A DNA stretch of 55,056 nt from Aromatoleum toluolicum (GTDB taxonomy: Bacteria > Pseudomonadota > Gammaproteobacteria > Burkholderiales > Rhodocyclaceae), in the NCBI RefSeq assembly GCF_012911005.2, contig NZ_WTVS01000040.1, positions 1 to 55,056 on the forward strand, written 5' to 3'. A program made the translations under genes and the position numbers. Shown here piece after piece: positions 1,161-48,355 of the stretch. The notes under the pieces are model-generated. The model saw only the letters and a list, made by a program, of their open reading frames with translations. It was not told where the DNA came from and did no database searches. Positions within the stretch are counted from its first letter, which is position 1. Each line of letters starts with the position of its first letter.

Positions 1161-1187
1161 ATAGACAGATTCGTACTATGTGTCGAT
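1161..1187. promoter_or_regulatory. ACA-N13-TGT operator, copy 1
   Basis: Left half ATAGACAGA (1161-1169), 9-base spacer, right half TGTGTCGAT (1179-1187), so ACA and TGT are exactly 16 bases apart. The left half is identical to the copy at 15765, and the layout matches six other promoter regions in this window. A TATAAA at 1187-1192 could be the -10 of the rightward promoter, which would place the operator across the -35 region. Likely controls the oxidoreductase-ETF operon, possibly with the LysR protein. Confidence 0.55.
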
Positions 1188-1209
1188 ATAAATAGAGAGT
1201 CTGGAGGGG

Positions 1210-4200
1210 ATGATGAACTCACCGCTGTCTGCCGAGGCGAGGGATGCACTGCTTTCGGTCACGCTGGAGGACAAGTACACCCAGGAGTCCGGACGCATCT
1301 ACCTGAGCGGTACTCAGGCCTTGGCGCGCCTGCCCATGCTGCAGAAGGAGCGCGACCGGCGCGCGGGGCTGAACACCGGCGGCTACATTTCGGGCTATCG
1401 CGGCTCGCCGCTGGGCGGGCTGGACATGGCGCTGTGGAAGGCGAAAAAGCATCTTGCCTCCCACGACGTAGTCTTTCAGCCCGGCCTCAACGAAGACCTC
1501 GCTGCGACCGCCGTGTGGGGCACGCAGCAGGTGAATCTTTACCCCAACGCCCAGCGCGACGGGGTATTCGGCATGTGGTATGGCAAGGGGCCGGGCGTGG
1601 ACCGCTCGGCCGACGTGCTGAAGCACGCGAACGCCGCAGGGACCTCGCCCCATGGCGGCGTGCTGATGCTCGCCGGCGACGACCATGCGGCGAAGTCGTC
1701 GTCGGTCGCGCATCAGTCGGAACACCTGCTGATCGCCTGTGGCATTCCGGTGCTGTACCCGGCGAACGTGCAGGAGTATCTCGACTTCGGCCTGCATGGC
1801 TGGGCGATGAGCCGCTACTCCGGGTTGTGGGTGTCGATGAAGTGCGTCACCGATGTCGTCGAGTCGTCCGCATCGGTCGAGATCGATCCGGACCGCCTGC
1901 AGATCGTCATTCCGGATAGCTTCGCAATGCCTGAAGGCGGGCTCAATATCCGCTGGCCGGATACGCCGCTCGCGCAGGAAGCGCGCATGCTCGATTACAA
2001 GTGGTATGCGGCGCTCGAATACGTCCGCGCGAACAAGCTCAACCGTATCGTGATCGATTCGCCCGACGCGCGCTTCGGGATCATGGCGGCAGGCAAAGCC
2101 TATCTCGACGTGCGTCAGGCGCTGACGGACCTGGGTTTGGACGACGATGCCTGTCGACGGATCGGCATCCGCCTCTTCAAGGTGGGCTGCGTGTGGCCGC
2201 TCGACGCCCACAATGCGCGCGCGTTTGCGACCGGACTGGAAGAAATCCTGGTGGTCGAGGAGAAGCGCCAGATTCTCGAGTACGCCCTCAAGGAGGAACT
2301 GTACAACTGGCGCGACGACGTCCGCCCGCGCGTCTACGGCAAATTCGACGAGCGCGACAACTCGGGGGGCGAGTGGTCGGTGCCGCGTGGGCAATGGCTG
2401 CTTCCGGCGCGCTACGAGCTGTCGCCGGCGATCATCGCGAAGGCCATCGCCGCGCGACTGGAGCGCGTGGGGCTGCCCGAAGACCTTCGCGCCCGCGTGT
2501 TCGCGCGCATCGATGTCATCGAGGCGAAGGAGCGCGAAGCGGCGCGGCCTCGCGTGACCGTCGAGCGCAAGCCCTGGTTCTGTTCGGGCTGTCCGCACAA
2601 CACGTCCACCCGCGTGCCGGAAGGCTCGCGCGCGCTCGCCGGCATCGGTTGTCACTACATGGCGATGTGGATGGACCGGCGCACCGAGACTTTCACGCAG
2701 ATGGGCGGGGAGGGCGTGAGCTGGCTCGGCCAGATGCACTTCTCGGGCGACAAGCACGTCTTCGTGAACCTCGGTGACGGCACCTATTTCCATTCGGGCC
2801 TGCTCGCCATCCGCGCGGCGATCGCCGCCAAGGCGACCCTCACTTACAAGATCCTCTACAACGACGCGGTCGCGATGACGGGGGGGCAGCCGGTCGACGG
2901 GGTGCTGACGGTGCCGCAGATCGCGCAGCAGGTGAGCGCCGAAGGTGCTAGCCGGGTCCTGATCGTGAGCGACGAGCCGGAGAAGTACGCGATGCGCGCC
3001 GGTCTGCCGGATGCGGTGACGGTGCACCATCGGGATGAGCTTGACGCGTTGCAGCTCGAGCTGCGCGAGAGTTCGGGGGTGTCGGTCCTGATCTACGATC
3101 AGACCTGCGCCACCGAGAAGCGCCGCCGCCGCAAGCGCGGCGATTACCCTGATCCGGCCCGCCGCGCATTCATCAACCCGGCAGTCTGCGAGGGTTGTGG
3201 CGACTGCTCCGTGGCCTCCAACTGCCTGTCGGTGGAGCCACTGGAAACGCCGCTAGGCACCAAGCGCAAGATCAATCAGAGCGGCTGCAACAAGGATTTC
3301 TCCTGCCTGAAGGGTTTTTGCCCGAGCTTCGTGACCGCCGAGGGCGCGCAATTGCGCAAGCCCGCAGCGCGCGAGTCGGCGCCGGTGACTGCCTCGGAAG
3401 CGCTGCCTGAACCCGCACTGCCCGGGCTGGACAAACCCTGCGGTATCGTCGTGACGGGGGTCGGCGGAACGGGGGTAGTGACGATCGGTGCGCTGTTGGG
3501 CATGGCGGCTCATCTGGAACAAAAGGGCGTCACCGTGCTCGACATGACCGGGCTCGCGCAGAAGGGCGGGGCGGTGTTGAGCCACGTGCAGATCGCGGCG
3601 ACCCCGGCGGCCATTCACGCCACCCGGATCGCTACCGGCGAGGCCGACGTGCTGATCGGCTGCGACGAGATCGTCTCGGCTTCGGCCGAAGCGCTCTCCA
3701 AGGTTCGTCAGGGACGCACGCGAGCGGTGGTCAATAGCGCGCAGACCCCGGCGGCGGAGTTCCTGTCGAATCCCGACTGGAAGTTTCCGGGGGCGGCGGC
3801 CGAGGGCGACATCCGCGCCAGTGTGGGCGATGCCTGTGAATTCATCGACGCGAACGCGCTTGCACTGCGGCTGCTCGGCGACACGATCTACGCCAATCCG
3901 CTCGTGCTGGGGTTCGCGTGGCAGAAAGGCTGGATTCCGGTCGGCAAGGCGGCATTGCTGCGCGCGATCGAGCTGAATGGCGTCTCGGTCGAAAAGAACC
4001 AGCAGGCGTTCGAGTGGGGACGGCTTGCGGCACACGACGCGGGAAAACTGCCGGTGGCCGACGCTTCGGGGCGGGGTGAGGCGGTGGTGCTGGCTATGCC
4101 GGAGTCGCTGGACCGGCTGATCGAACGCCGCGTCAGGCTGCTCAGCGATTATCAGAATGGTGTCTATGGCGAGCGTTACCGAAAGGCCGTGGCGCGGGTG

Positions 4201-4770
4201 CAAGAGGCCGAGCGAGCGGTGGTTGGACAAGGCCGACTCGCCCTGACCGAGGCTGTCGCGCGCAACCTCGCGAAGCTCATGGCGTACAAGGACGAGTACG
4301 AGGTGGCGCGGTTGCACAGCGCGCCCGAATTCCTCGCCCAGTTGCGCGAACAGTTCGAGGGCGAGCCCGGCCGGGATTACCGGCTCAACTTCCACCTCGC
4401 GCCACCCCTGTTCGCGAAGCGTGGCGTTGACGGCCTGCCCCAGAAGCGCGCCTACGGTCCGTGGATGATGCGTACCTTCCGCCTGCTCTCCCGCTTCAAG
4501 GGCCTGCGTGGCACCGCCCTGGATCCCTTTGGCAGGAGCGCGGAGCGGCGCCAGGAGCGCGAACTGGTGAAGGACTATTTCGTCTTCATCGACCGCATCT
4601 GCGACGGCCTGTCGCGAGACCGGCTGGATGTCGCGATCGAGCTTGCGCGCATCCCGGAACAGATTCGTGGCTATGGCCACGTCAAGGAACGCAGCATGGC
4701 CGGCGCGACCAAGCGTCGCGAAGAGCTGCAGGCCCGGTTCGAGGCTGGCCGGTCGGAACGGGCAGCCTGA
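1210..4770 (+). CDS. Indolepyruvate:ferredoxin oxidoreductase, fused single-chain form
   Basis: A 1186-residue 2-oxoacid:ferredoxin oxidoreductase of the large fused IorA/IorB type, which oxidatively decarboxylates aryl pyruvates to aryl-acetyl-CoA and reduces ferredoxin. An N-terminal pyruvate-oxidoreductase-like domain is followed by a TPP domain (GDGTYFHSG near residue 521, then [11 protein letters not shown]). Next is a cysteine-rich iron-sulfur segment (CEGCGDC near 660, further Cys to about 710) and a gamma-type domain (GVGGTGVV near 750). A C-terminal family-specific extension follows. The length is normal and no frameshift is seen. GGAGG at 1203-1207 sits too close to the ATG at 1210, so the adjacent ATG at 1213 may be the real start. 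It is first in an operon with etfBA. Substrate specificity cannot be read from sequence. Confidence 0.92.
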
Positions 4771-4856
4771 AGTGCGCCGGACAACAACATCGAGGCGCTC
4801 GCGCCCTTGATGGTCGTACGGCGCGAATCAACCAGCAATCGACAACAAGGAGACTC

Positions 4857-5618
4857 ATGAAGATCCTGGTACCCGTCAAGCGCGTGCTTGACTACAACGT
4901 GAAGGCCCGCGTGAAAGCGGACGGTTCGGGCATGGACCTCGCCAACGTGAAGATGGCCATGAACCCCTTCGACGAGATCGCGGTGGAAGAGGCAGTGCGG
5001 CTGAAGGAAGCGGGCATCGCGACCGAAGTGATCGCCGTGAGCTGCGGCGCGGCGGTGTGTTCCGAAACCCTGCGCGCGGCGATGGCGATCGGGGCCGACC
5101 GCGGCATCCTCGTCGATTGTGGTGAACTGAGCGACGCGGAGTTGCAGCCGCTCGCCGTCGCCAAACTCCTGAAGGCCGTGTGCGACACGGAAGCCCCGGA
5201 GCTGGTGATCTGCGGCAAGCAGGCGATCGACGACGACGCGAACCAGACCGGTCAGATGCTCGCCGCCCTGATGGGCTGGCCGCAGGCCACCTTTGCGTCG
5301 AAGCTGTCATTGGACGGGAGACTTGCCACGGTCACGCGCGAGATCGATGGCGGCCTCGAAACCCTCGAGATGACGCTGCCCGCGGTGGTGACCACTGACC
5401 TGCGCCTCAACGAGCCGCGTTATGCGACGCTGCCCAACATCATGAAGGCAAAGAAGAAGCCGCTCGATAGCGTGAAGCCCGCGGAGCTAGGCGTTGATGT
5501 CGCACCGCGACTGGCGATTCTGAAAGTGGCCGAGCCGTCCAGGCGCAGTGCCGGCGTGCTGGTGCCGGACGTCGCGACGCTGGTCGATAAACTGAAGAAC
5601 GAAGCAAAGGTGATCTGA
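4857..5618 (+). CDS. etfB: Electron transfer flavoprotein beta subunit
   Basis: A 253-residue EtfB starting [16 protein letters not shown], with the typical [13 protein letters not shown] and [12 protein letters not shown] signatures. As half of the ETF heterodimer it binds AMP and collects electrons from flavin dehydrogenases for the quinone pool. The start at 4857 follows AAGGAG at spacing 5; the frame stays open upstream but has no comparable ribosome site. The gene lies 86 bases after the oxidoreductase and overlaps etfA by one base (TGATG), so translation is probably coupled. No acyl-CoA dehydrogenase is in this window; the ETF partner may be encoded elsewhere. Confidence 0.95.
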
Positions 5619-6547
5619 TGGCCGTCCTCGTCATTGCGGAACACGACAACCAGTCGATCAAGACCGCGACTCTCAACGCCGTGACCGCCGCGCAAGTGGT
5701 CGGAGCGGACATCCACGTCCTGGTCGCGGGCAACGGCTGCTACGCCGCCGCTCAAGCCGCGGCCGCCATCGGCGGCGTCGCGAAGGTGCTGGTATGCGAC
5801 GCGGCCCATTACGCAACGCAGACCGCCGAGAACGTCGCCGAACTCGTGCGCGCGCTCGCCGCCGACTACGGTCACGTCTTCGCCGCGGCAACCAGCGCCG
5901 GCAAGAACATGCTGCCGCGCGTCGCCGCACAGCTCGACGTCGCGCAGATCTCCGACATCGTCGCGGTGGAGTCGGCCGACACCTTCGTGCGACCGATCTA
6001 CGCCGGCAATGCGCTGGCGACCGTCAAGAGCACCGACCGCGTGAAGGTGGTGACCGTGCGCACCGCTGCGTTCGACGCCGCGCCGCTCGGCGGCTCCGCG
6101 CCGATCGAAGCTGTGCCCGCCGCGAAGGACCTGGGCCTGACCCGTGTCGTCGGCCGCGAACTCACGAAGAGCGAACGCCCCGAACTCGGTGCCGCCAAGA
6201 TCATCGTCTCCGGTGGCCGGGGGCTGGGCAACGGCGAGAACTACCGTACCTTGCTCGAGCCCCTCGCGGACAAGCTCGGCGCCGCGCTCGGTGCGAGCCG
6301 CGCCGCGGTCGATGCGGGCTTCGTCCCCAACGACTATCAGGTCGGCCAGACCGGCAAGATCGTCGCGCCCCAGGTCTACATCGCGATCGGCATCTCCGGT
6401 GCGATCCAGCATCTGGCAGGCATGAAGGATTCCAGGCTGATCGTCGCGATCAACAAGGACCCGGAGGCGCCGATCTTCCACGTCGCGGACTACGGCCTTG
6501 TCGCGGATCTGTTCGCCGTGGTTCCTGAACTGACAGCGACCATTTGA
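5618..6547 (+). CDS. etfA: Electron transfer flavoprotein alpha subunit
   Basis: A 309-residue EtfA. The C-terminal FAD-binding domain is clear: SGGRGLG near residue 205, [12 protein letters not shown] near 245, and the [12 protein letters not shown] and [10 protein letters not shown] motifs. Partner of the preceding EtfB. It ends the operon and is followed by a strong rho-independent terminator at 6655. Its presence beside a 2-oxoacid:ferredoxin oxidoreductase and within a beta-oxidation-rich island suggests it serves CoA-ester dehydrogenations of the same pathway. The family is certain; the specific electron donor is inferred. Confidence 0.95.
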
Positions 6548-6747: not shown

Positions 6748-6774
6748 TTGAACAAAAGCGCACATAGTGTGTAA
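6748..6774. promoter_or_regulatory. ACA-N13-TGT operator, copy 2
   Basis: Left half TTGAACAAA, right half TAGTGTGTAA region, with ACA at 6752-6754 and TGT at 6768-6770, the same 16-base offset as the other copies. The ATAGTGTG core is shared with the copy at 23669. It lies about 50 bases upstream of the small exported protein and downstream of the etfA terminator, so it is most likely part of that gene's own promoter. Confidence 0.45.
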
Positions 6775-9890: not shown

Positions 9891-10832
9891 TCAGCCCCTG
9901 GCGTGGAGAACCTCGGGGTCGAAGACCTCCGCCGGTGTGCGCACGCTAGGGCCGAGGATGGGGCCGACGATCTCATGACCCCAGGTGGAGAGCTGCTCCG
10001 GATTGAGTTCGAAGCCGTCATCGTGCCAGGGTTCGAGTTCGGTGATGCATTCGATCGCGAAGCCGGACGGCGTGAAGTGATAGAAGGACATGTGCGGGTC
10101 CTGCGAATGCTGTCCCAGCGTCATCATCATCTGTAGTCCGTTCTTCTTGACCAGATCGTAGGTTTCGCCGACGTCGCGAACCGAGCGCACGAAGAGGCCG
10201 ATGTGCTGCACGCCGGCCTTGCCCGGGCCGAAACCGTAAGCGATGTCGTGGCTCGTCTTGTCGTTGAGCCTGGAGCGGAAGAACCCCGTCTTGCCCTTGC
10301 CGGCGCCCGAGCCGTACCAGTGCATGCCCATGATGCCGGTGAGGAAGTGTTCGAGTTCGGGCGTGTATTCGGGCGTGATCACGACGATGTGGCCGACGCC
10401 CCGTTCGCCGCAGACGAATCCGCCGTGCGGACGGCCCGGCACGAAGGAGCGCGGGCTCCATTTCTGGGCATAGAACAGCTCGTGCTGGTATCCGACCGGG
10501 TCACGGAAACGGATCAGCTCCTTCACGCCGCGTTTGTCGCACAGTTCTGGATCGCCGAAGCTGATCTCGACACCATGGCTGCGGAAGCGCTCGACGGCGG
10601 CGTGAAACTCCAGCTTGCCCTTGGCTTCCCAGCCGATGTAAGCGAGGCGGTCGATCTTGCCCGTATGGAATGCGAGCCGATGACGACGGTCATCGAGCTT
10701 GAAGTAGAGGGTGTCCGGATCCGCAGTCGGGGATGTCCCGATCTGAAAGCCCATGACCTTCGGGCCATATTCGCGCCAGGCATCGAGGTTCGCCGATTCG
10801 AACCCCAGGTAGCCGATACCGATGATGTCCAT
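9891..10832 (-). CDS. Extradiol (catechol meta-cleavage) dioxygenase, VOC family
   Basis: A 313-residue two-module vicinal-oxygen-chelate protein of the BphC/HsaC length class. The iron ligands of the C-terminal module are intact: H148 (GVGHIVV), H210 (VQHIGLF) and E261 (FAIECIT), with the neighbouring His243 and Tyr251 also in place. It should open a bicyclic or substituted catechol between one hydroxylated and one adjacent carbon. AGGAGGA precedes the start. It is third in a leftward set behind the 3Fe-4S ferredoxin and SDR, 130 bases from the SDR. The preferred catechol is unknown; biphenyl-, steroid- and diterpenoid-type catechols are all possible. Confidence 0.92.
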   Translation of the reverse strand: MDIIGIGYLGFESANLDAWREYGPKVMGFQIGTSPTADPDTLYFKLDDRRHRLAFHTGKIDRLAYIGWEAKGKLEFHAAVERFRSHGVEISFGDPELCDKRGVKELIRFRDPVGYQHELFYAQKWSPRSFVPGRPHGGFVCGERGVGHIVVITPEYTPELEHFLTGIMGMHWYGSGAGKGKTGFFRSRLNDKTSHDIAYGFGPGKAGVQHIGLFVRSVRDVGETYDLVKKNGLQMMMTLGQHSQDPHMSFYHFTPSGFAIECITELEPWHDDGFELNPEQLSTWGHEIVGPILGPSVRTPAEVFDPEVLHARG

Positions 10833-10962: not shown

Positions 10963-11721
10963 TCAGATTGCGAGCAGACCCCCGTCGATGACGAGGTCCG
11001 AACCGGTCATGAAGGCGGCTTCGTCCGAGGCCACGTACAGGGCCAGCGACACGACTTCCTCGGGTTCCCCCGGCCGATCCTGCAGCACGCCATCGAGTAG
11101 CGCCCGGCGGGTGACGGGGTTCTCGACGAAGGCCGCGGTGCCGGGCGTCTTCACGAAGCCCGGACTGATGCTGACCGCGCGTATGCCGACCGGCGCCCCT
11201 TCGACCGCCAGCTGGCGGGTGAAGGAGACGACCGCACCCTTGGCGGCGCAGTGGGCGCTGATGCCTGCAACCTTTGAGCCGCCCCAGGCGGCGGTCGAGG
11301 CGATGTTGATGATCACGCCACCGCGCACGGCGAGATGCTTCCACGCGTATTTGGTCGTGTAGAAGATGAGGTCGATCTCGTTCCGGATCGTGTAGTGCCA
11401 GTCAGCGATCGAGAATTCCGCCACCGGTCCGAAACGCGCGGCCGATGCGTTGTTGTAGAGAACGTCGATGCGCCCGAACTGTTCCGCCGCGGACTCGACC
11501 CAGGCGCGGGCCTGTTCGTGGTCGCCGAGGTCCACCGGGGCGGAGCCGTGCAACTCGAATCCTTCGGCCTCGACCAGCCGGCGCGTTTCGGCGTGGGCGG
11601 CTGCATCCGTGTCGCAACCTACCACCACGGCGCCCTCGCGCGCGAAGCGCAAGGCTGCGACACGACCCTGACCGCCGCCGGTGCCGGTGATCAGCGCTAC
11701 TTTTCCTTCAAGACGATTCAT
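10963..11721 (-). CDS. SDR-family oxidoreductase with His in place of the catalytic Tyr
   Basis: A 252-residue classical-length SDR with a normal Rossmann motif (TGTGGGQGRVAAL, residues 13-25) and the NNASA motif. The active-site YxxxK reads H-C-A-A-K (ISAHCAAKGAVV), so tyrosine is replaced by histidine while lysine remains. I checked the codon: CAC on the minus strand. The conserved serine region (NIASTAAW) is present. GGAG precedes the start. It lies between the ferredoxin (60-bp gap) and the extradiol dioxygenase, where a cis-dihydrodiol dehydrogenase would be expected. Whether the His variant is active is not known from sequence. Confidence 0.9.
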   Translation of the reverse strand: MNRLEGKVALITGTGGGQGRVAALRFAREGAVVVGCDTDAAAHAETRRLVEAEGFELHGSAPVDLGDHEQARAWVESAAEQFGRIDVLYNNASAARFGPVAEFSIADWHYTIRNEIDLIFYTTKYAWKHLAVRGGVIINIASTAAWGGSKVAGISAHCAAKGAVVSFTRQLAVEGAPVGIRAVSISPGFVKTPGTAAFVENPVTRRALLDGVLQDRPGEPEEVVSLALYVASDEAAFMTGSDLVIDGGLLAI

Positions 11722-12054: not shown

Positions 12055-12081
12055 ATGCACAGAAAAGGAAAAAGTGTCACT
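12055..12081. promoter_or_regulatory. ACA-N13-TGT operator, copy 3
   Basis: Left half ATGCACAGA (12055-12063), right half AGTGTCACT (12073-12081), with ACA and TGT 16 bases apart. It sits in the 146-bp gap between IclR and the ferredoxin, about 50 bases upstream of the ferredoxin start, and would control the ferredoxin-SDR-extradiol set. Weaker than the copies at 15765 and 25274. Confidence 0.4.
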
Positions 12082-12152: not shown

Positions 12153-12941
12153 TCAAAACAGCAGGTTCGACAGCTTGTCCGCGAGTTTGCGCACCTCGCC
12201 CCCGAGCTTGTCCGCGTCGGCGCCAATGTACTGGCCCCGGAACATCACCGCCGATACGGCAAAGGAAATGGCACCGGCGCGGTCGCGCACGGGGGCCGCA
12301 ATAGCCATGATGCCGGCCGAGAAGTAGCCGTCATCGATCGCCCACTGGTGTTCCTTGGCGAACTGCACCTGCTGACAGTACTCGTCGAACTCCAGCGGTC
12401 GGGCCCAGCGGATCTTGTCGAATGCGGCGCGCATCGCGGTTGGGTCGAGATCCACCTCCGCCGCGAACAGTCTGCCGCTGGCGCCCATGAAGATGGGCAA
12501 ACGCTGACCGATCGCCATGTCGATGCGCAGATCGGTCGGGCTTGCCTCCGAACTCACCAGCACGATGCGGTCGTATCCCATCTGACGCCACAGGGTGACC
12601 GTGACATGGAAGCGGGCGGCGAATTGCTGCAGCAGTGGGCGCGCGATGTCGAGCCGCTGGCCCTGCGTCACGAGGTGGCCTACGAGTTTGGCGAGCCCCA
12701 GGCCGGGCGAATAGGTCTTCGACGCGGGATCGAATGCAACCATGTCCTCGGCGGCCAGTGTGCGCAGGATGTTGAAGCAGGTACTGGGGTTGATCGACAA
12801 CTGCCGGGCGATGTCCGCCGCGCGCTCCGGGGTGTCGGTCTCCGTCAGAAAACGCAGGATCCGCACCGCATTGACGACAGGCTTGACGGTGACCCCGCTT
12901 GACGACCGGCCCGCGGTTTCATCCTCTTGTGTGGTGTCCAT
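12153..12941 (-). CDS. IclR-family transcriptional regulator
   Basis: A 262-residue IclR protein from the start MDTTQEDETAGR, chosen because GGAGGAGACA precedes it and earlier in-frame sequence lacks family similarity. Winged HTH at about residues 20-85 (VVNAVRILRFLTE, then NPSTCFNILRTLAAEDMV); effector domain at about 100-260 (FHVTVTLWRQMGYDRIVLV, GASGRLFAAE). IclR proteins commonly govern aromatic and diterpenoid catabolism. It lies upstream of and parallel to the ferredoxin-SDR-extradiol set. Its upstream region carries AT-rich palindromes (13094-13117) that could be its operator. The effector is unknown. Confidence 0.92.
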   Translation of the reverse strand: MDTTQEDETAGRSSSGVTVKPVVNAVRILRFLTETDTPERAADIARQLSINPSTCFNILRTLAAEDMVAFDPASKTYSPGLGLAKLVGHLVTQGQRLDIARPLLQQFAARFHVTVTLWRQMGYDRIVLVSSEASPTDLRIDMAIGQRLPIFMGASGRLFAAEVDLDPTAMRAAFDKIRWARPLEFDEYCQQVQFAKEHQWAIDDGYFSAGIMAIAAPVRDRAGAISFAVSAVMFRGQYIGADADKLGGEVRKLADKLSNLLF

Positions 12942-13093
12942 CCCTTGTCTCCTCCGTCCGTCGTGCAGGCGTCCCGGTCGGCAAACGGGAGACGTCTTCC
13001 TCGCGTGTGCCCCAGGCGAGGCGTCCAAGGAATCAGGGTGCCCATCCGTGAGCCGGAGAATCTGCACGTAAAACGGTTTTGTGTTTGCGTATT

Positions 13094-14119: not shown

Positions 14120-15313
14120 TCAGTCACGGACCAGCAGCACACTGCCGCCCAGCGGTCCACCGCCTGCCGCAACCACTGAAACGTGATGGGGCGCGATCTG
14201 TCGTTCGCCCGCGCGTCCCCACAGCTGCGAGCAGGCTTCATGAACGTAGCCCAGACCGTGCGTGCGCCCACCGGAGAGCTGGCCGCCGTTGGTATTGATC
14301 GGCAACTGGCCGTCGCGGGCGATGCGGTGGCCACCTTCGACGAAGCGGCCGCTTTCGCCGCGCGGGCATAGCCCGAGTGCTTCGAGCCAGATCATCGTGA
14401 GGATCGAGAATCCATCGTAGAGCTGGGCCGAGCCGACGTCCTTGGGCTTGAGATCGGTGCGCGCCCACATCATTTCGCCGACATCGCGCGCGGCGGTCGC
14501 GGTGAGGTCGATCTGGTCCCACGACCAGGGTTGGTGCAGTGCGGCGCCGATCGCTTCGAGGCGGATTGGTGGATTTGGCCCGTCCCTGGCGACGTCGGCA
14601 CGCGAAAGGATGATCGCGGTCGAGGCGTCGCAATGGACGTCGCAGTCGAGCATGCGCAGTGGAGTCGAGATCATGCGCGAGGCAAAGTAGTCATCGAGCG
14701 AGAGCGGCGTCCGGTAGATCGCCTTGGGGTTCAGCGCGGCGTTGCTGCGGCAGGTGAGGGCGATCTGGGCGAGTTGTTCGGGCGTCGTGCCGTATTCGTG
14801 AAAGTGGCGCTGGGTGTAGAGCGCCATGAGGTTGATCGCGGAGAGCACATTGAATGGCGTGTACCACTGCCAGAAGAAGCTGCTGTCGCGTCCGATCGTC
14901 TTGTTCGTCAGGGCGCTGGCATTCTTGTCGACCTTGCGGCGGCTCGCTTCCGTGATGGTGCGGAAGACCAGCACGTGGCGGCACAGGCCGGATGCGATCG
15001 CCATCGCGCCGTTGATGATGCCTGCGAGCGGTCCGGGGCCTTCGTAGCCCCCTCCGTACCAGTTGACCTGGAGGCCGAGGGTGCCGATCAGCGCGTTGGG
15101 GCCGACGGGCGAGAAGGCATCGCCATTGTTGTTGTCGCCCGGCCAGCACGCCACGCCGTCGATGTCCGCGCGCGTGAGTCCGGCGTCGGCGATGGCTTCG
15201 AGGCAAGCGTCCAGCGTGAGTCGCATGCCCGATCGGGCAACCGGGCGTCCTACCGCGGACTGGCCGACACCGGTGATGGCGACGTCTTTTTCAAAGATTC
15301 GGTCGAACATCAT
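14120..15313 (-). CDS. Thiolase-fold protein lacking active-site Cys (Ltp/SCP-x-like)
   Basis: A 397-residue thiolase-superfamily protein of the lipid-transfer-protein/SCP-x thiolase type. Both thiolase cysteines are missing: the N-terminal Cys site reads YEGPGPLAGI and the C-terminal one reads VAAGGGPLGG, although NGG and the His of GGRTHGLG remain. Start chosen at 15313, where ATGA overlaps the stop of the DUF35 gene upstream. This pairing matches the Ltp-DUF35 retro-aldolases of steroid side-chain degradation, which cleave a beta-hydroxyacyl-CoA without the cysteine; a conserved tyrosine (QLYDGFS) is present. Aldolase function is inferred from the missing Cys and the partner. The aldol substrate and the released ketone or aldehyde are unknown. 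Confidence 0.85.
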   Translation of the reverse strand: MMFDRIFEKDVAITGVGQSAVGRPVARSGMRLTLDACLEAIADAGLTRADIDGVACWPGDNNNGDAFSPVGPNALIGTLGLQVNWYGGGYEGPGPLAGIINGAMAIASGLCRHVLVFRTITEASRRKVDKNASALTNKTIGRDSSFFWQWYTPFNVLSAINLMALYTQRHFHEYGTTPEQLAQIALTCRSNAALNPKAIYRTPLSLDDYFASRMISTPLRMLDCDVHCDASTAIILSRADVARDGPNPPIRLEAIGAALHQPWSWDQIDLTATAARDVGEMMWARTDLKPKDVGSAQLYDGFSILTMIWLEALGLCPRGESGRFVEGGHRIARDGQLPINTNGGQLSGGRTHGLGYVHEACSQLWGRAGERQIAPHHVSVVAAGGGPLGGSVLLVRD

Positions 15314-15708
15314 GCGTCCTTCTCGAAGAGGGGGAGCCACACGTCCTCGTGCTGCTCGAAGCGCACCCTGACGGGCATGTCGATATGCACCGCCTCGGCG
15401 GGAAGTCCCACGACATTCGTGACGAAGCGCAGGCCGCTCTGTTCCGCGAGTTCGACGATCGCCACCACATAAGGCTCGGTGAGGTCGGGGCGCCATGCCT
15501 GGTGATTGATCGTGTAGCTCAGGACCTTGCCCTTGCCGGAGACCGCCCGCGGTGCCACCTCGAAACTGCCGCAGTGCGGGCAGATCGGGGCGGGCGGATG
15601 AAAGAAGCGCGTGCAGTCCGCGCAATGATGTATGAGGAGGCGCCCCTGCGCGCCGCCCTGCCAGAACGGGGAGTTGTCCTCGGTGAGGAGGGGGAGTTTT
15701 CGGGTCAT
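15310..15708 (-). CDS. DUF35 zinc-ribbon/OB-fold protein, partner of the Ltp-like thiolase
   Basis: A 132-residue DUF35 protein. The rubredoxin-like zinc ribbon (HHCADC and CPHCG, four cysteines, about residues 29-52) is followed by an OB fold with the typical GKGKVLSYT segment. Start MTRKLPLLTEDNSPFW; the long in-frame extension upstream has no family similarity and crosses the promoter. DUF35 proteins bind acyl-CoA and act as obligate partners of Ltp-type thiolases. Overlap with the next gene by ATGA indicates a stoichiometric complex. First gene of the leftward pair, read from a promoter shared with the SDR-FAH-Rieske operon. Confidence 0.9.
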   Translation of the reverse strand: MTRKLPLLTEDNSPFWQGGAQGRLLIHHCADCTRFFHPPAPICPHCGSFEVAPRAVSGKGKVLSYTINHQAWRPDLTEPYVVAIVELAEQSGLRFVTNVVGLPAEAVHIDMPVRVRFEQHEDVWLPLFEKDA

Positions 15709-15764: not shown

Positions 15765-15791
15765 ATAGACAGAAGTGCAAAATCTGTCTAA
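15765..15791. promoter_or_regulatory. ACA-N13-TGT operator, copy 4 (divergent promoter)
   Basis: Nearly perfect palindrome: ATAGACAGA (15765-15773), 9-base spacer, TCTGTCTAA (15783-15791); TAGACAGA/TCTGTCTA is exact over 8 bp. The spacer centre TGCAAAA is shared with the copy at 25274. It lies midway between the DUF35 start (15708, leftward) and the SDR start (15859, rightward), so one site could govern both operons. TAGACA at 15766-15771 also resembles a -35 element with TAAAGT 17 bases on. Confidence 0.65.
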
Positions 15792-15858: not shown

Positions 15859-16560
15859 ATGAGTACTCGACTCGAAGCTAGAAGTATCGTCGTAACCGGT
15901 GGATTCGGCGCGCTTGGCCGCGCGGTGGCGCAGCGCCTCGTGGAAGACGGTGCGCACGTCACGCTTGTGGACCGTGCGGCGGCGCCCGCTGGCGGCCTGC
16001 CTGCAGGCGTCGCGGTTGTGCTCGGCGGGGTCGACCTGAGCGACGAAGCGGCCTGCGCGGCAGCCTATGCGCGCGTGCGTGTGGCTGCTGGTGGCATCGA
16101 CGGCGTGGTGAATGTGGCAGGTGGCTTCGCGTGGGAGCCGATCGAAGGCGGAGCGCTCGAGACCTGGGATCGCCTGTACACGATGAATGTGCGTACCGCC
16201 GTAGCGAGTTGCCGGGCGGCTCTGCCGCATCTGCTGGCGCGCGGGGCGGGGCGCATCGTGAATGTCGGCGCACTGGCCGCGCAGAAGGCCGGAATGGGGA
16301 TGGCGGCGTATGCCGCATCGAAGTCCGGCGTCGCGCGGTTGACCGAATCACTTGCCGAAGAGCTCAAGGACCGTGGCGTCACCGTGAATGCGGTGTTGCC
16401 GAGCATCATCGACACCCCCGCCAACCGCGCCGACATGCCGGACGCCGATGCCAGCCGCTGGGTGGCGCCGGACAAGCTCGCCGCGGTGATCGCTTTCCTG
16501 CTCTCGGATGACGCCTCGGCCGTCACCGGAGCCTGCGTGCCGGTGAGCGGCCGGGTGTAG
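15859..16560 (+). CDS. SDR-family oxidoreductase
   Basis: A 233-residue SDR from MSTRLEARSIVVTGG (start 15859; the longer frame upstream crosses the operator). The nucleotide-binding TGGFGALGRA motif and the catalytic YAASK are present. The position 13 residues before the Tyr, normally Ser, is Ala (NVGALAAQKAG), although variants of this kind occur in the NVGA subgroup. First gene of the rightward SDR-FAH-Rieske operon. A dihydrodiol or hydroxyacyl dehydrogenase role is plausible but not distinguishable from sequence. Confidence 0.88.
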   Translation: MSTRLEARSIVVTGGFGALGRAVAQRLVEDGAHVTLVDRAAAPAGGLPAGVAVVLGGVDLSDEAACAAAYARVRVAAGGIDGVVNVAGGFAWEPIEGGALETWDRLYTMNVRTAVASCRAALPHLLARGAGRIVNVGALAAQKAGMGMAAYAASKSGVARLTESLAEELKDRGVTVNAVLPSIIDTPANRADMPDADASRWVAPDKLAAVIAFLLSDDASAVTGACVPVSGRV

Positions 16561-16656
16561 CAACCGCCAGCGCCTCTTCCGTGGGGAGGGGCAGAACTCG
16601 AAGAAGAGAGGATTCGCCCGCATCGAGCGGGACGAGTCCCCGACAGGAGACAATAG

Positions 16657-17643: not shown

Positions 17644-17815
17644 CGGGAAGACGCAGTCCTTCGCAATAAGGACGTTAGACGGTGGGCAACGGCTACCGAA
17701 ATACAGGGTGCCGAACACCGGTGCCCGAGCAATTGAACAACCCACAAGAAGTGGCCGTCAGGCCCATCGAACGAGGATCGTCCTTACGGACGGCTTCACT
17801 CCACAGGAGATGACA

Positions 17816-19210: not shown

Positions 19211-19249
19211 GCCGTCCGGTCCGACCCAACACCTTCGAAGGAGCGACAC

Positions 19250-19813
19250 ATGAGCGCCGCACAACAAGTTGCCGAGAACGCCCCCGTCATCGGAAACCCG
19301 ATCCCGGTCGGGGCCGAAGTCTATAATCGCATCGTCGGCTTCCTCTACCAGGAAGCGACCCTGCTCGACACGATCCGTCTCAAGGAGTGGGGCGCGACGC
19401 TTGCGCCCGACCTGGTCTACACCGTGCCTCTGCGACAGACCCGCCCGATGTCCCAGCAGGCCCAGTCGGTTATCCGCACCGTGCAGCACTACCACGACAA
19501 CTACCGCTCGATCATGGGGCGCATCATGCGGCTCACCGAGACACGTAGCGCGTGGGCCGAGGATCCCCCGTCACGCACCCGCCGCATGGTCAGCAACGTG
19601 CAGGTATTCGCTACCGACAGGCCCGACGAGTTCGCGGTCGTGAGCTATCTGCTGCTGACACGCAGCCGTTTCGACTTTCCGGACATGGATGTCATCAGCG
19701 GGGAGCGCAACGATCTGCTGCGCGTCGATGGCGAGGGATTCAAGCTCGTGCGTCGCGAAGTCATTCTCGACCAGGCGGTGCTGGGCACGCCGAACCTCGC
19801 GATCTTCCTCTAG
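19250..19813 (+). CDS. Rieske dioxygenase beta subunit (set 1)
   Basis: A 187-residue small subunit of the NTF2-like dioxygenase beta family (VYNRIVGFLYQEATLLDTIRL, then TRTRRMVSNVQVF-like core as PPSRTRRMVSNVQVF). It forms the structural half of the alpha3beta3 oxygenase. GAAGGAGCGACAC precedes the start; 39 bases after the alpha subunit. It shares the WAEDPPSR segment with the second beta subunit at 46270 (WGEDPPSR), so the two sets appear to derive from one ancestral pair. Confidence 0.93.
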   Translation: MSAAQQVAENAPVIGNPIPVGAEVYNRIVGFLYQEATLLDTIRLKEWGATLAPDLVYTVPLRQTRPMSQQAQSVIRTVQHYHDNYRSIMGRIMRLTETRSAWAEDPPSRTRRMVSNVQVFATDRPDEFAVVSYLLLTRSRFDFPDMDVISGERNDLLRVDGEGFKLVRREVILDQAVLGTPNLAIFL

Positions 19814-19915
19814 GCAACCCGGGCGCCGCCGGTCCGGTTACGGATCGGACGGTGCCCGTTCTGTCCTTCGGCACGAGGCTGGTACGAGAGCCAGGACGGG
19901 GAGCGGAGTAGAAAA

Positions 19916-43161: not shown

Positions 43162-44745
43162 TCAGTTTTCGATGAGGTCGTCGAAATCCATGCCCAGGTC
43201 TTCCAGCACCACCTGTGCCGCATTGCGTCCGGACGCCGCGGTGACCCCGCCCCCCGGATGGGTGGAGGCGCCCGCCATGTACAGACCCGCCACCGGCGAC
43301 TTGTACTGCCCGTAGCCCGGGGCAGGGCGGTTGCCCGCGATCTGCCAGTTGTACGAGCCGAAGTGCAGGATGTCCGCGCCGATCATCGCGTTGTTGTGGC
43401 GCTCGATATCGAGCGGGGTGAACCACGAGAAACCAATGATGTTGTCGTCACTCATGTTGGTCGTGAGCTTGCGCAGGTCGTCGAGGAATCCGTAGGCGAC
43501 TTCCTTGCCGATCTCGTCCCAACGCTGCGGGCCGCCCTTCACGTTGTAGGGGCAGAAAGCGTACATGTTGAGTACGCGCTTGCCCTCGGGTGCCCGCGTC
43601 TTGTCATAGACGTCCTGCATTACGTAGGCGACGAAGTCGCGGCGCGGGATGCCGTATTCGAGATCGGAGAAGGCGCGTGCGAACTCCTCCCAGTCGGAGT
43701 GCGAACGCTCGACCCAGAAGAAATCGTCCACCGCCGGACCGACCTTGTACTGCGGCGCCTCGTGCAGCGCGAGGTGCAGGTTGAAGGGCTGGAAGCTGTT
43801 GCGTTTCAGGCCCCGAATCCGCGGCTCGAATCCTTCCGGCAGATTTGCGCCCGGCACCATGTGCGGGAACACCTGTTGCACGTGCATCGTCGAGATGACG
43901 CCTTTCTTCGCCACGATCTCCTCGCCCGATTCGAGCACGACGCCCGTCACCTTGCTGCCATCCATGCGCATCTGCTTGACGGGCGCATTGACGCGTACTG
44001 CGCCGCCATGCGATTCGAAGCACTCCCGCAGCTTGTCCGCGAAGGCACCCGAGCCGCCGACCGGAATGCCGACGCCGTAACGGTGCATGAAGGGCAGAAT
44101 GATGTAGAAGCCGAATCCCGTGCCGTTGTTGAACGGGTTCATCATGGCTTCCGAGGCATAGCGGGCCAGCGCGATGCGCACCTTGGGGTGCTCGAACCAT
44201 TCGCAGATGAAGTCCCATGCGCTCATCGACTGGGTTCGCATCAGCGATTGCCCGACCACGCTCTGCTCCATCATCACGGCTTGGGCCCCCGCGTTCGGGG
44301 GCGCGTGGAACATGCCCATCACCATCATGTCGAGGTTCTGGAAAACCTCCTTGTTGAAGCGCCGGTAGGCCTCCGCGTCCTTCTGCGAGAATTTTGCGAT
44401 CGCCTGGGCAGTCTGTTCGAGATCGGTGTAGAACTCGAGCGTAGTCCCGTCGTCGTAGAAGATCGCAGTCATCTTGTCGGGATTGATGTACTTCAGCCCG
44501 AACTTCGATTTCAGCTGCAGTTCGTCGTTGCGCAGCAATGGGTTGGCCTGCAGCAGGGTGTGTGCGACGGAGCAGACGTCATGCTTGAAGCCCGGCACTG
44601 TCAGCTCGCGCGTCATGACGCCGCCGCCGACCTTGTCGTTCTTCTCGACGACGCATACCTTCAGTCCCGCCTTCGCCAGGTAGCACGCGGCCACCAGACC
44701 GTTGTGGCCGCCACCGGCGACCACGATGTCGTATTGTTCGCTCAT
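43162..44745 (-). CDS. Phytoene-desaturase-like FAD-dependent oxidoreductase
   Basis: A 527-residue flavoprotein of the COG1233 group. FAD motif VVAGGGHNGLVAACYLAKAG at residues 8-27 with the acidic VVEKNDKVGG, and the C-terminal FAD motif LYMAGASTHPGGGV near 490. Unlike carotenoid desaturases it sits beside a Rieske oxygenase and amidohydrolase, suggesting dehydrogenation or isomerisation of a cyclic intermediate. CGGGAGAAATCC precedes the start. Fourth gene of the leftward set that starts at the alpha subunit (48273). Its substrate is unknown. Confidence 0.92.
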   Translation of the reverse strand: MSEQYDIVVAGGGHNGLVAACYLAKAGLKVCVVEKNDKVGGGVMTRELTVPGFKHDVCSVAHTLLQANPLLRNDELQLKSKFGLKYINPDKMTAIFYDDGTTLEFYTDLEQTAQAIAKFSQKDAEAYRRFNKEVFQNLDMMVMGMFHAPPNAGAQAVMMEQSVVGQSLMRTQSMSAWDFICEWFEHPKVRIALARYASEAMMNPFNNGTGFGFYIILPFMHRYGVGIPVGGSGAFADKLRECFESHGGAVRVNAPVKQMRMDGSKVTGVVLESGEEIVAKKGVISTMHVQQVFPHMVPGANLPEGFEPRIRGLKRNSFQPFNLHLALHEAPQYKVGPAVDDFFWVERSHSDWEEFARAFSDLEYGIPRRDFVAYVMQDVYDKTRAPEGKRVLNMYAFCPYNVKGGPQRWDEIGKEVAYGFLDDLRKLTTNMSDDNIIGFSWFTPLDIERHNNAMIGADILHFGSYNWQIAGNRPAPGYGQYKSPVAGLYMAGASTHPGGGVTAASGRNAAQVVLEDLGMDFDDLIEN

Positions 44746-44859
44746 GGATTTCTCCCGTTATCGGTTCCGGCGTCGGGCGTGAGGGCGCCCGCCGCGCTAT
44801 CGCGGATAGCGCGGGATGTCTTCCTCTCATGCTGCGGGCGCCGTGAAGCGTCCCCCGGA

Positions 44860-46176
44860 TCAGAGTGCGGTTTCGGCGTCCGCCTGTTTGAACATCGCGT
44901 TGATGTCGCCCGAAGTGACCGGCTTGCCGGCTTCCCGCTTCGGTGCCGCGCCCCCCATGCCTTGCGTGGGCGAGGTGTCGATGCCCTTGGCGCGAGCCTG
45001 CGCGCGCAGCGCGCCGACGGTGCAGTTCTCGCGGCCGAGGATCGCGAACGGGTCGTAGCTGTATTCGCGCATCACGTTCCGGTGAGTGACCTTGGCGATG
45101 GTCTCGTCGGGGAGGTGCCTGAAGCTCTCCCACACCACTTCCGGAGAATTCGGCCAGGTGCAATCGGAATGCGGGTAGTCGCATTCCCAGCCAACCATGT
45201 CTTCACCGATGTGCTTCAGGTTCTGCAGTCCGAAGTCGTCCTCGATGAAACACGTGATGATGTGCTCCTTGAAGATGTCGCTCGGCTTCTTGCCGCCGAA
45301 GCTGGCATTCGTCCAGGCCTTGTGATGCCGGTGGGTGAAATCCGCGCGCTCGAGCAGGTAGGGAATCCACCCGATGCCGCCCTCGGAAAGCGCCATCTTC
45401 AGCGTCGGGTACTTCCTCCACATCGGCGCCCAGATCCAGTCGGCCGCCGAGTTCGCGATCGAGATCGGCATCGAAGTGATCCACGCGTCGATCGGCGACA
45501 GGTCGGAGGCGTGCTCGGCCTTGACGCCGGTGCCGATGTGGCAGTTGATGACCACCGCGTTGTCCGCGCAGGCCTTCCACACCGGGTCCCAGTACGAATC
45601 GTGGATCGACGGGAAACCATGCAGGGCGGGGTTGTCGGAGAAGGAGATCGCATGCACCCCGTCTTTCGCCATACGGTTGATTTCGGCGGCGGCCGCCTGT
45701 GGATCCCACCAGGGAATCAGCGCCATCGGGATGAAGCGACCCGGGGCGGCGTTGCACCAGTCGTGCAGGTGCCAGTCGTTGTAGGCCTGGATGGCGGCGA
45801 GCGATACGTCGCGCGCTTCCTCGTAGTGCTGGAAGCGCTGGCCCGCGAAACCGGGGAAGGTCGGGAAGCACAGCGAGCCGAGCACGCCATTGGCGTTCAT
45901 GTCGTCGACGCGCGCCTGGACGTCCCAGGTGCCGCGCCTCATGTGTTCGTAACCGAGCGGTTCCATGCCGTACTCTTCCTTGGGACGGCCGACGACCGAG
46001 TTGAGGCCCATGTAGCCGGTGGCCCGTCCTTCGAAAACCCACACATCGCGGCCCTTATGCTTCTCGATGTGAGGCTCGCGCCCTTTGAAGCGGGCCGGCA
46101 TGTGGCGCGCAAAGGCGTTCGGGGGTTCGATGGCGTGGTCGTCGATGCTGACGAGGATGAGATCTTCAAGTTTCAT
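44860..46176 (-). CDS. Amidohydrolase-2 family protein (longer form)
   Basis: A 438-residue COG2159-type protein. The start MKLEDLILVSIDDHAIEPP (46176) follows GGAGACAACACGCC; the longer frame is unsupported. It belongs to the SxDDHxxEPP subgroup, in which the first metal motif is D-D-H rather than H-x-H. NCHIGTG, WECDYPHSDCTWP (late Asp present) and THRHHKAW are visible. A C-terminal tail of about 40 residues follows the barrel. It differs in length and motifs from the amidohydrolase at 25462. Probably decarboxylates or hydrolyses an intermediate of the second Rieske branch. Confidence 0.9.
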   Translation of the reverse strand: MKLEDLILVSIDDHAIEPPNAFARHMPARFKGREPHIEKHKGRDVWVFEGRATGYMGLNSVVGRPKEEYGMEPLGYEHMRRGTWDVQARVDDMNANGVLGSLCFPTFPGFAGQRFQHYEEARDVSLAAIQAYNDWHLHDWCNAAPGRFIPMALIPWWDPQAAAAEINRMAKDGVHAISFSDNPALHGFPSIHDSYWDPVWKACADNAVVINCHIGTGVKAEHASDLSPIDAWITSMPISIANSAADWIWAPMWRKYPTLKMALSEGGIGWIPYLLERADFTHRHHKAWTNASFGGKKPSDIFKEHIITCFIEDDFGLQNLKHIGEDMVGWECDYPHSDCTWPNSPEVVWESFRHLPDETIAKVTHRNVMREYSYDPFAILGRENCTVGALRAQARAKGIDTSPTQGMGGAAPKREAGKPVTSGDINAMFKQADAETAL

Positions 46177-46269
46177 GGCGTGTTGTCTCCTATCCCGCCC
46201 TGGCATGCCGCGCACGTGGCCGAGCGGCATGCAGGCGGTGTGTTTGTGGTAGTGGCCGTCGTCACGCGT

Positions 46270-46839
46270 CTAAAGGATCACGCCCAGATTGGGGGTGCCG
46301 ATGACGACCTGGTCGAGCAGGATCTCGCGGCGCGCGAGTTTCAGCGCGCCATTCTCGCGGCGCAGAATGTCGTGGCGGACGCAGGGGATCAGGTCGAAGT
46401 AGTCGAAATCGAAGCGGCTGCGTGTGAGGAGCAGATAGCTCTCGACCTTCAGGTCATCGCTGTCGTCGATTCGGTAGACGCGTACGTTCGTGACCAGACG
46501 CTTGATGCGCGATGGCGGATCCTCGCCCCAGGCGCTTTTGGTGTCGGTAATGCGCTTGACCCGCATGAGCATCGATCCGTAATTCTCGTGCAGGTGCTGG
46601 ACGTTGCGCGAATAGGTCTGGTCGAACTGGGACGTCGAACGTGTGTGGCGCAGGGGCGCGTTGTATTCGAGGTCCTTGGTGAGCAGTTCTGCCCATTCGC
46701 CGAGGCGCAGGTTGTCGAGCATTTCGGCTTCGTCATAGAGGAAGTCGAGCACCTCGTTGTAGGTATCGCTGCCGGAGGGAATACGGTTCGCCTTGATCGA
46801 GGGCGGCAGCGGAGTCGGTTCGAGCAGTTGCTGAAGCAT
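46270..46839 (-). CDS. Rieske dioxygenase beta subunit (set 2)
   Basis: A 189-residue NTF2-like beta subunit (YNEVLDFLYDEAEMLDNLRLGEW; WGEDPPSRIKRLVTNVRVY). Clear homologue of the 19250 protein, with a longer N-terminus. CAGGAGACCTCC precedes the start, 39 bases after the alpha subunit. No ferredoxin or reductase follows; the operon continues with amidohydrolase instead, so electrons probably come from the ferredoxins encoded at 21215 or 11782. Confidence 0.93.
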   Translation of the reverse strand: MLQQLLEPTPLPPSIKANRIPSGSDTYNEVLDFLYDEAEMLDNLRLGEWAELLTKDLEYNAPLRHTRSTSQFDQTYSRNVQHLHENYGSMLMRVKRITDTKSAWGEDPPSRIKRLVTNVRVYRIDDSDDLKVESYLLLTRSRFDFDYFDLIPCVRHDILRRENGALKLARREILLDQVVIGTPNLGVIL

Positions 46840-46878
46840 GGAGGTCTCCTGAAATAGGGGTAGGTAGTCGTGCTGTGA

Positions 46879-48273
46879 TCAGTTCTCGGCAGTCATCAGT
46901 TCGTACCAGTATTCCCACCAGCGCCACTGGGTGTCGTCCTTCGTGAAGCCGTCGCCGACATCGCCGGGGCCCGGCCAGCCTTCGAGCCGGTTGTTCTCGT
47001 ACATCGATTGATACTTCATCGTGATGTGCTTGCTAACGGCACCCTTCGCAGCGAGCGTCTGGTGCGGCCAGGTGTCCGAATCGTCCTGCTCGACCATGCC
47101 CGAGGTGCCCAGGAGTTGGACGCCGAGGCGCAGCATCTTGGCCTTCAGTTCCGGCGGAGTGTCCTTCTCGGCCAGGATCCAGTTCACGAATTCGAGCTTG
47201 TCCGGCCCCTTCGGGACATACGCGTGCAGCGCCATGACCCCGATCACGCCATCGGGCGAGGGGATGTAGACGAACTCGAACAGCCCGTTGGGAAAGAAGT
47301 TGCCCACCTGGGGCGGACGCCAGGCCATGACGCGTAGCTGGTCATCACTGAAGCGACGGAGCACTTCCGGCAGCATCTCGGGCGTGATGCCCGGCGGGGG
47401 CAGCGCCTCGAGTTTCTCCTTGATCGACAACTCGCTCGGGTCCTTCCCCGTCAGGCGTCGGATCTTGCGGTCCAACTCGATGCATCGCATGGTGTGTGCG
47501 TGCGCCGTGTAGACCTCGGTGCCGTACATCTCCGGCGTCAGGTCGCCACCACCACCTTCGCTGCCTGGCTTGCGATAGGGGCCCACTTCCGACAACCAGC
47601 GGTGCAAGGTCAGCACATGGAATCCGTCCGACGCCGACTGCTCGCAGGCGGTCTTCCAGTTCGCACGGATGGTGAAACGCTGCGGGGGGCCGAGCACTTC
47701 CATGCCCTTTTCAGTGCGGCACCAGAGCGTGTCGAAATACCATTTCGCGTCCCCGAGGAAGTCCTCGAAGCTGGGGCCCTCGATGTTCCACGTCGCAAAG
47801 ACCAAGCCGCCATAGATCGCGACGCGCGCCTTCTTCAAGCCGAGTTCCTGCTTGGTCATCATCTTCCCGTGCATGCATTCCTTCTCGACCGGCGCACCGA
47901 TGAAGTCGCCGTTCGGCTTGAATGCCCAGCCGTGGTAGATACAGACGTGAGTCATCGTATTACCCACGTCATGGGTCGAGATTTTCATGCCTCGATGGGG
48001 GCATACGTTGAGTGAGACGTACACCTCGCCGTCCGACCCGCGTGCCATCAGCACGGAATCCGATCCCATGTCGCGGACGACGAAATCGCCCTTGTTCGGG
48101 ATTTCGGTTTCGTGCCCCAGGAATACCCAAGTCTTGGCGAAGATGCGCTCCATCTCGAGCTCGAACAGTTCGGGATCGGAAAGCGCCCGCATCTTGACTT
48201 CGCGGGTTTCGAGGTTGATCAGGTCGGAAAGCAGGGTGCCGTCCGAGAGTTTGGGGTTTGATTTTCTGTCCAT
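46879..48273 (-). CDS. Rieske ring-hydroxylating dioxygenase alpha subunit (set 2)
   Basis: A 464-residue terminal oxygenase with Rieske ligands C91, H93, C111 and H114 and the mononuclear-iron motif D-G-F-H-V-L-T-L-H (D216, H219, H224). Distal Asp region EQDDSDTWPHQ is conserved. Same length as the 17816 protein and highly similar, with differences concentrated in the catalytic domain (for example EQSASDGFH versus EQSAADGYH), suggesting related but different substrates. GGAGGAGGAACAC precedes the start. First gene of the leftward operon that ends at 42868; operator copy 7 lies upstream. Confidence 0.95.
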   Translation of the reverse strand: MDRKSNPKLSDGTLLSDLINLETREVKMRALSDPELFELEMERIFAKTWVFLGHETEIPNKGDFVVRDMGSDSVLMARGSDGEVYVSLNVCPHRGMKISTHDVGNTMTHVCIYHGWAFKPNGDFIGAPVEKECMHGKMMTKQELGLKKARVAIYGGLVFATWNIEGPSFEDFLGDAKWYFDTLWCRTEKGMEVLGPPQRFTIRANWKTACEQSASDGFHVLTLHRWLSEVGPYRKPGSEGGGGDLTPEMYGTEVYTAHAHTMRCIELDRKIRRLTGKDPSELSIKEKLEALPPPGITPEMLPEVLRRFSDDQLRVMAWRPPQVGNFFPNGLFEFVYIPSPDGVIGVMALHAYVPKGPDKLEFVNWILAEKDTPPELKAKMLRLGVQLLGTSGMVEQDDSDTWPHQTLAAKGAVSKHITMKYQSMYENNRLEGWPGPGDVGDGFTKDDTQWRWWEYWYELMTAEN

Positions 48274-48306
48274 GTGTTCCTCCTCCTTGAAGGTCGTCCG
48301 TTCGTC

Positions 48307-48355
48307 TGCGCTTAAAAACTGAACACAAACACAAAAGATGTATAATTTAAGCGCA
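48307..48355. promoter_or_regulatory. ACA-N13-TGT operator, copy 7, inside a larger palindrome
   Basis: Inner site: ACA at 48323-48325 and TGT at 48339-48341, 16 bases apart. It is framed by a perfect 10-bp inverted repeat TGCGCTTAAA (48307-48316) and TTTAAGCGCA (48346-48355), centred within one base of it. TATAAT at 48341-48346 could be the -10 of the rightward SDR promoter. It lies between the divergent Rieske alpha (start 48273) and SDR (start 48533) genes, so it can control both. Confidence 0.55.

Follow-up and report, generated by a model that had tools for sequence, protein, structure and literature searches.

Seven promoter-region palindromes in a resin-acid-type gene island of Aromatoleum toluolicum as probable operators of a TetR-family regulator

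Which regulator reads the ACA/TGT inverted repeat that recurs between the genes of a catabolic island in Aromatoleum toluolicum? The stretch analysed here (the window, 55,056 nucleotides) is the entire contig C224 of a 6.16-Mb genome in 289 contigs, and its island, judged by gene content, closely resembles the dit cluster for abietane diterpenoids (resin acids). A sequence-only reading had placed the repeat in seven promoter regions and proposed a regulon of the TetR-family protein encoded among them, and this proposal gains support from the co-occurrence of sites and TetR in Rhodocyclaceae and Pseudomonadaceae and from a TetR paralogue on a second contig, C215. In our best explanation, which we hold to be very likely, the sites are operators of the window TetR and of the C215 paralogue, with TetR acting as a ligand-released repressor of a resin-acid pathway.

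All seven 27-base cores were found as described, with ACA and TGT 16 bases apart, and the stretches common to several of them (ATAGACAGA, ATAAACAGA, TGCAAAA and ATAGTGTG) were likewise recovered. The bare ACA-N13-TGT pair was dropped as evidence, being common by chance, as the sequence-only reading had itself cautioned: the window holds 12 matches against 5.28 expected, a count reached by 1 of 100 shuffles, and the five matches outside the seven sites lack the extended palindrome. The extended similarity, on which that reading had rested its argument, holds and is stronger than it had been put, in the form of a palindrome that it had not named, TRNACA-N13-TGTNYA, of which the window has 5 copies where 0.03 would be expected; none of 100 shuffles attains 5. 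Across the aligned sites, position 2 is T and position 3 a purine in 7 of 7, both mirrored on the right in five; at 1161 and 12055 the left half is intact and the right half partly lost. The copy singled out as the best, at 25271–25303, does have perfect 10-bp arms. Taken together, the sites suggest an operator consensus in the form of a 27-bp palindrome, about wTRAACAnAwTTnnnAAwTnTGTTYAw. Leave-one-out matrix scores of the seven run from 13.9 to 28.7, and the top two of 339,558 background positions (340 kb of the own genome outside the window and C215 loci) score 16.3 and 13.6. An eighth candidate, at 14069 (score 12.2), was rejected, with no counterpart of at least 12 in the stretches of the relative G044.

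Carried unchanged to 20 held-out loci (L040–L057, L059 and L060; TetR 31–69% identical), the matrix of the seven cores finds 69 sites at a score of at least 17 in 347,109 bases, against a mean of 1.2 and a maximum of 11 for 200 symmetric column-permuted matrices, none of which reaches 69. Outside this set stand L036–L039 (near-identical), L061 (a 34% homologue) and L058 (26% identity, the weakest match, unscanned). The spacing is equally constrained: TRNACA-Nx-TGTNYA at x = 13 occurs 6 times in the own two loci, 36 times in the held-out loci and 2 times in the background, while any other spacer from 7 to 20 gives at most 3 full palindromes. The sites are enriched between genes, 85 of the 91 scoring at least 17 (only 70 of them distinct, and genes called with a purpose-made caller) being intergenic where 13.6% would be expected, with one or more called starts downstream of 78 of those 85. 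The six called genic fall between genes by PLSDB annotation (three, L059) or between homology matches (L041, L042, L046). In 15 of the 22 loci L036–L057, a site of at least 17 has its centre 29–37 bp before the start of the SDR gene that precedes tetR.

Genome-wide, TRNACA-N13-TGTNYA occurs at 10 places, five of them in the window (0.9% of the genome). Two of the five outside it are the same stretch at the same coordinates of contigs C1 and C220, which hints at a contig present twice in the assembly. A refined pattern, WTRNACANWWN7WWNTGTNYAW, was chosen from the sites in the window, C215, L036–L057, L059 and L060, which makes its counts for the own genome and L040–L057 partly circular. With at most one mismatch, it matches the genome at 8 places, all of them on the two contigs with a tetR of this family, the window and C215. 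The sequence-only reading's list of window operons stands and was incomplete, since C215 also belongs to the putative regulon. The TetR paralogue encoded there is 56–58% identical to the window TetR with the stretch SRGTFYRYFSSQDDLLDAFSRH unchanged, in the company of two P450s, an AMP-binding CoA ligase, acyl-CoA dehydrogenases and a CoA-transferase; C215 further encodes an amidohydrolase that matches one of the window at 77%. Three strong sites lie on C215, at 29825 (the divergent tetR/CoA-ligase region), 13788 (before the amidohydrolase gene) and 23401, and weaker matches precede the P450 genes at 15251 (12.1) and 26385 (15.6), again at 12.5 and 15.6 in G044, where the two site groups lie ~81 kb apart on one chromosome. 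A reverse-transcriptase gene (RVT_1) also lies within this second locus (L016:4664–6106).

Sites and regulator keep company across genomes. In Rhodocyclaceae, TetR (E 1e-30 or better) is found in 3 of 150 genomes, with 8, 9 and 10 pattern places against 1, 0 and 0 for the reversed control; the other 147 have 0 to 6 places each, 82 of them none. In Pseudomonadaceae, 30 of 398 genomes encode a DitA1-like protein, and all 30 carry one TetR homologue each (1e-15, 52–60% identical), that of G678 with a stop codon inside the match. These 30 genomes have 6–15 places each: 27 of them sum to 284 against 39 in the reversed control (0–4 per genome), and three counted separately have 10, 10 and 12 against 0, 1 and 1. 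The 27 genomes and the relative G067 contributed nothing to the refined pattern. Three Pseudomonadaceae without DitA1, the only such controls, have 0, 1 and 0 places, and a site lies within the 2–4 kb examined around tetR in 29 of the 30. The 18 genomes of L040–L057 give 198 places against 42, a partly circular count.

Further afield, a Massilia plasmid (TetR 60%) has five matches (14.8–31.2), preceding a divergent CoA-ligase/tetR pair, two P450 genes, an amidohydrolase gene and a carboxymuconolactone decarboxylase gene, and three (12.6–21.1) lie between genes on a Caulobacter plasmid whose homologue is 31% identical. When DitA1-like genes were looked for across the class (369 genomes, with no more than a few candidates scored per genome), only the own genome was returned. 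At the level of sequence comparison, we regard it as shown that the palindrome is real, fixed in its spacing, intergenic and tied across genomes to the TetR family and to dit-like genes; that the same site travels with the same TetR across distant bacteria makes it very probably the docking site of that TetR.

The relatives that carry the same TetR were also compared site by site, and the promoter sites recur. TetR genes 96–100% identical, in the same gene order, are found in Thauera and Aromatoleum. All seven sites are present in G044, site 1 identically (27/27) and site 2 with 4 of 27 bases changed and its palindrome intact. L036–L039, which share sites 4 and 5, and G044 are of little use for footprinting, their flanks being 93–100% identical. 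G067, covered by 80 kb in two blocks 10 kb apart, has five of the seven at corresponding places (1161, 15765, 23669, 25274 and 48319, the last at L085:17339); sites 2 and 3 have no counterpart in the G067 stretches examined. Raw identity in G067 is mixed: 24/27 against a flank of 0.70 at 15765 and 23/27 against 0.78 at 23669, 24/28 against 0.88 at 25274 and 17/27 against 0.79 at 1161, where the motif score is retained (19.5) and raw identity is not. Site 48319 falls outside this comparison, as the alignment ends before it.

The protein itself is of the expected kind. The PF00440 score of the window TetR is 41.5 bits (cut-off 24), in agreement with a TetR_N helix-turn-helix, and the protein stays below the cut-off of every NCBIfam model. 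Its AlphaFold model (20 homologues; predicted local distance difference test score 76.9, predicted template-modelling (TM) score 0.66, ten helices) has the predicted all-helical fold of the TetR family, C-terminal ligand/dimer domain included, and is silent on the ligand; the best Foldseek matches are TetR-family chains with TM-scores of about 0.4–0.7 and an E-value of 3e-5 at best, among them EthR2, SaFadR and KstR. A palindrome in the putative promoters of the regulator's own gene and of its targets, as a TetR-family operator would have it, is what the sequence presents.

The stretch SRGT[FL]YRY[FY] is common to all TetR homologues listed. Two TetR genes each are present in the own genome (G000), G044 and G067, and three adjacent paralogues, all with SRGTFYRYF, are found in L042, L049, L051 and L055. 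Because their recognition stretches are nearly identical, the paralogues probably read the same operator. It is possible, though doubtful, that two TetR paralogues (three adjacent ones in four relatives), with diverged ligand domains and one operator code, make up a multi-sensor regulon integrating several resin-acid intermediates; that the paralogues sense different ligands is conjecture.

How would such a system work? TetR dimers free of ligand would bind the 27-bp palindrome, perhaps as two dimers per site, which is suggested because the conserved bases spread over about 26 bp; QacR binds its operator in this way, with two dimers per site. Bound TetR would occlude the core promoters and hold the pathway silent, with its CoA ligase and P450 genes on C215 and its genes for ring dioxygenation, ring cleavage, beta-oxidation and transport in the window. 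The tetR gene itself would probably also be repressed, through site 5, whose position upstream of the SDR–tetR pair suggests autoregulation. A resin acid or an early intermediate, as free acid or CoA thioester, would then bind TetR and release it; a ligand derived from resin acids is the one we infer because the regulon spans CoA ligase, P450, ring-attack and beta-oxidation genes.

Of the alternatives, the first accepts TetR as the reader and makes it an activator, or gives the sites a role other than that of a classical ligand-released repressor. Site placement bears on this: in 56 of 79 site orientations (leaving out L037–L039, sites called genic and starts more than 200 bp away) the site is centred 29–98 bp ahead of a called start, close enough for a repressor to cover the promoter, while in 19 of 79 the distance exceeds 98 bp, and site 6 stands 175 bp from its called start. 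Most characterised TetR-family members repress, and we consider this alternative unlikely. The half-site likeness to –35 sequences, which the sequence-only reading had offered as fitting repression, was rejected as independent evidence because it is inherent in the motif (TNNACA against TTGACA).

A second alternative, that the sites belong to the island's IclR (DitR-like) or LysR regulator and TetR merely hitch-hikes, is quite unlikely. LysR sites are usually less symmetric, and the invariant-spacer dyad here fits a symmetric dimeric binder. Both regulators are encoded beside sites in the window; yet, at E 1e-8 among 63 sequences, many of them short or partial, the window IclR is found only in the window and L052–L054 and the window LysR only in the window and G067, and sites occur on C215 (60 kb) and on 40 kb of the Massilia plasmid, both without a match to either regulator. 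In favour of IclR, the accessible text of PMC12628601 names the IclR protein DitR as the regulator of published dit clusters, besides an unassigned "ydcR" repressor and "R". Finally, chance, by which AT-rich promoter DNA in a GC-rich genome would yield ACA-N13-TGT pairs for the eye to pick from the commonly occurring ones, is practically negligible against permuted matrices of the same AT content, a spacer scan that peaks at 13 alone and the lack of pattern excess in Rhodocyclaceae genomes without TetR.

Several observations weigh against a TetR-repressed resin-acid regulon or limit the reach of the motif. The two weakest sites, 23669 (13.9) and 12055 (15.8), are each outscored by one background position, and at two mismatches, where the refined pattern is no longer specific, it has 17 places in the genome, of which the two contigs account for 10 and the remaining contigs for 7; the reversed control has 12. 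The L051 genome lacks a pattern excess (13 against 12), and a Croceicoccus plasmid with a 34% homologue carrying the similar SRGTLYRYF has nothing above 12.8 in its 30-kb stretch; the recognition stretch alone therefore does not define the operator. In the window, the matrix scan agrees with the sequence-only reading that the DUF1302–DUF1329–MMPL run has no site in front, and 7 of the 85 intergenic sites are upstream of no called start. The –10/–35 signals nearby are weak: at the best offsets, the thresholds are passed by 22% and 18% of the 79 orientations. The preference for repression over activation draws on the behaviour of the family and on sites near start codons, and the substrate of the pathway is read from the kinds of genes present rather than from an alignment to the original dit sequences.

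The sites and the genes around them are collected in Table 1.

Table 1. Candidate operator sites and associated genes of the window
Feature	Positions	Strand	Context
Operator site 1	1161..1187		between LysR gene (204–1115, –) and IOR-like gene (1210, +)
Operator site 2	6748..6774		about 50 bp upstream of 72-codon open reading frame (6825–7043, +)
Operator site 3	12055..12081		between IclR gene end (12153) and SDR/extradiol genes (11721 downwards, –)
Operator site 4	15765..15791		upstream of SDR–FAH–Rieske–MFS–ferredoxin–reductase operon (+); divergent from thiolase gene (–)
Operator site 5	23669..23695		between DUF2889 gene (–) and SDR gene (+); tetR starts 62 bp after SDR gene
Operator site 6	25274..25300		best copy, perfect 10-bp arms 25271–25303; overlaps tetR end
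Operator site 7	48319..48345		between second Rieske alpha gene (46879–48273, –) and SDR gene (48533, +)
TetR-family regulator, proposed repressor	24576..25277	+	Pfam TetR_N PF00440, E 1.2e-10
IclR-family regulator, DitR-like by family	12153..13067	–	Pfam; start may be 12941
Extradiol ring-cleavage dioxygenase, DitC-like by family	9891..10832	–	
SDR dehydrogenase, DitB-like by family	10963..11721	–	
Thiolase-like protein, DitF-like by family	14120..15625	–	true start may be near 15313
Gene run: SDR, FAH-family, Rieske alpha/beta (DitA1/A2-like), MFS, ferredoxin, ferredoxin reductase	15859..22807	+	
Gene run: amidohydrolase, FAH-family, 3-hydroxyacyl-CoA dehydrogenase, thiolase, SDR	25462..30403	+	downstream of site 6
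Indolepyruvate-ferredoxin-oxidoreductase (IOR)-like gene and ETF-family genes	1210..6547	+	behind site 1
Second Rieske alpha, amidohydrolase and amine-oxidase-family genes	43162..48273	–	behind site 7

Site 3 lies 334 bp from the SDR start. The IOR-like oxidoreductase may belong to the pathway, given the putative operator in front of it and its recurrence in G067. The second Rieske alpha protein, with an operator site of its own, is 69% identical to the DitA1-like one, and two DitA1 copies are found in 7 of the 30 DitA1-bearing Pseudomonadaceae. The 72-codon frame behind site 2 starts in the manner of a signal peptide and has a strong ribosome site; G044 encodes a 90% identical protein, and no match was found in the other examined loci, own-genome copies aside. 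DUF1302, DUF1329 and MMPL genes are also present in the window (Pfam, NCBIfam). Near the contig end lies a piece of a recombinase-family gene (PF07508, 53249–53713, +), perhaps a trace of island mobility.

The breakdown of resin acids is of importance for the treatment of pulp-mill effluent, for bark decay and for conifer–insect symbioses. A portable 27-bp operator paired with its TetR would allow the regulon to be delineated in many genomes and unlinked pathway genes to be added to it (P450s, a CoA ligase, a small protein that is putatively secreted, and an IOR-like oxidoreductase with ETF); the pair would also offer a handle on the metabolite sensed and parts for a diterpenoid biosensor.

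Among known systems, the nearest in gene content is the dit cluster, whose kinds of genes (DitA-like dioxygenase, extradiol dioxygenase, IclR, permease, P450 and CoA ligase) are all present at family level in the window and C215. The likeness to the clusters in the accessible text of PMC12628601 and PMC13063091 extends to dioxygenase alpha and beta subunits, ferredoxin, extradiol dioxygenase, MFS permease, IclR, P450, CoA ligase, isomerase/decarboxylase-type (FAH-family) genes and a thiolase/sterol-carrier-like gene; the genes here differ in being split over two loci. For P. resinovorans, the accessible part of PMC10710418 reports 10 of 24 co-located dit genes, and relative L054, with this TetR, is of the same species (a species-level match). 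The word TetR has no match in the accessible text of the dit-cluster papers searched for it, and none of the open-access papers listed for the subject concerned a TetR protein, or an operator of one, in the control of resin-acid genes; the original dit papers, outside that set, may well list a TetR gene.

TetR operators as such are a known kind. KstR and FadR have the TetR fold and control, each through one palindrome, a catabolic regulon (steroid or fatty-acid), with ligands that are often CoA thioesters. The window TetR resembles them in weak sequence similarity and in its fold matches to SaFadR and KstR, and is a member of neither family (28 bits against a cut-off of 280 for NCBIfam KstR, NF033703; 26.5 against 200 for FadR); their operators also differ from the palindrome here. 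CymR, too, belongs to the TetR family. The inner half-sites of its operator CuO are spaced as ACA-N12-TGT, in contrast to N13 here, and the N12 spacer occurs 0 times in the own loci and 1 time in the held-out loci. What the two systems have in common is a repressor of a pathway for an aromatic isopropyl acid, on the side of CymR/CuO of Pseudomonas putida F1, and half-sites similar to those described here, AAACAGA...TCTGTTT in the cumate operator as given in the accessible text of PMC12868391.

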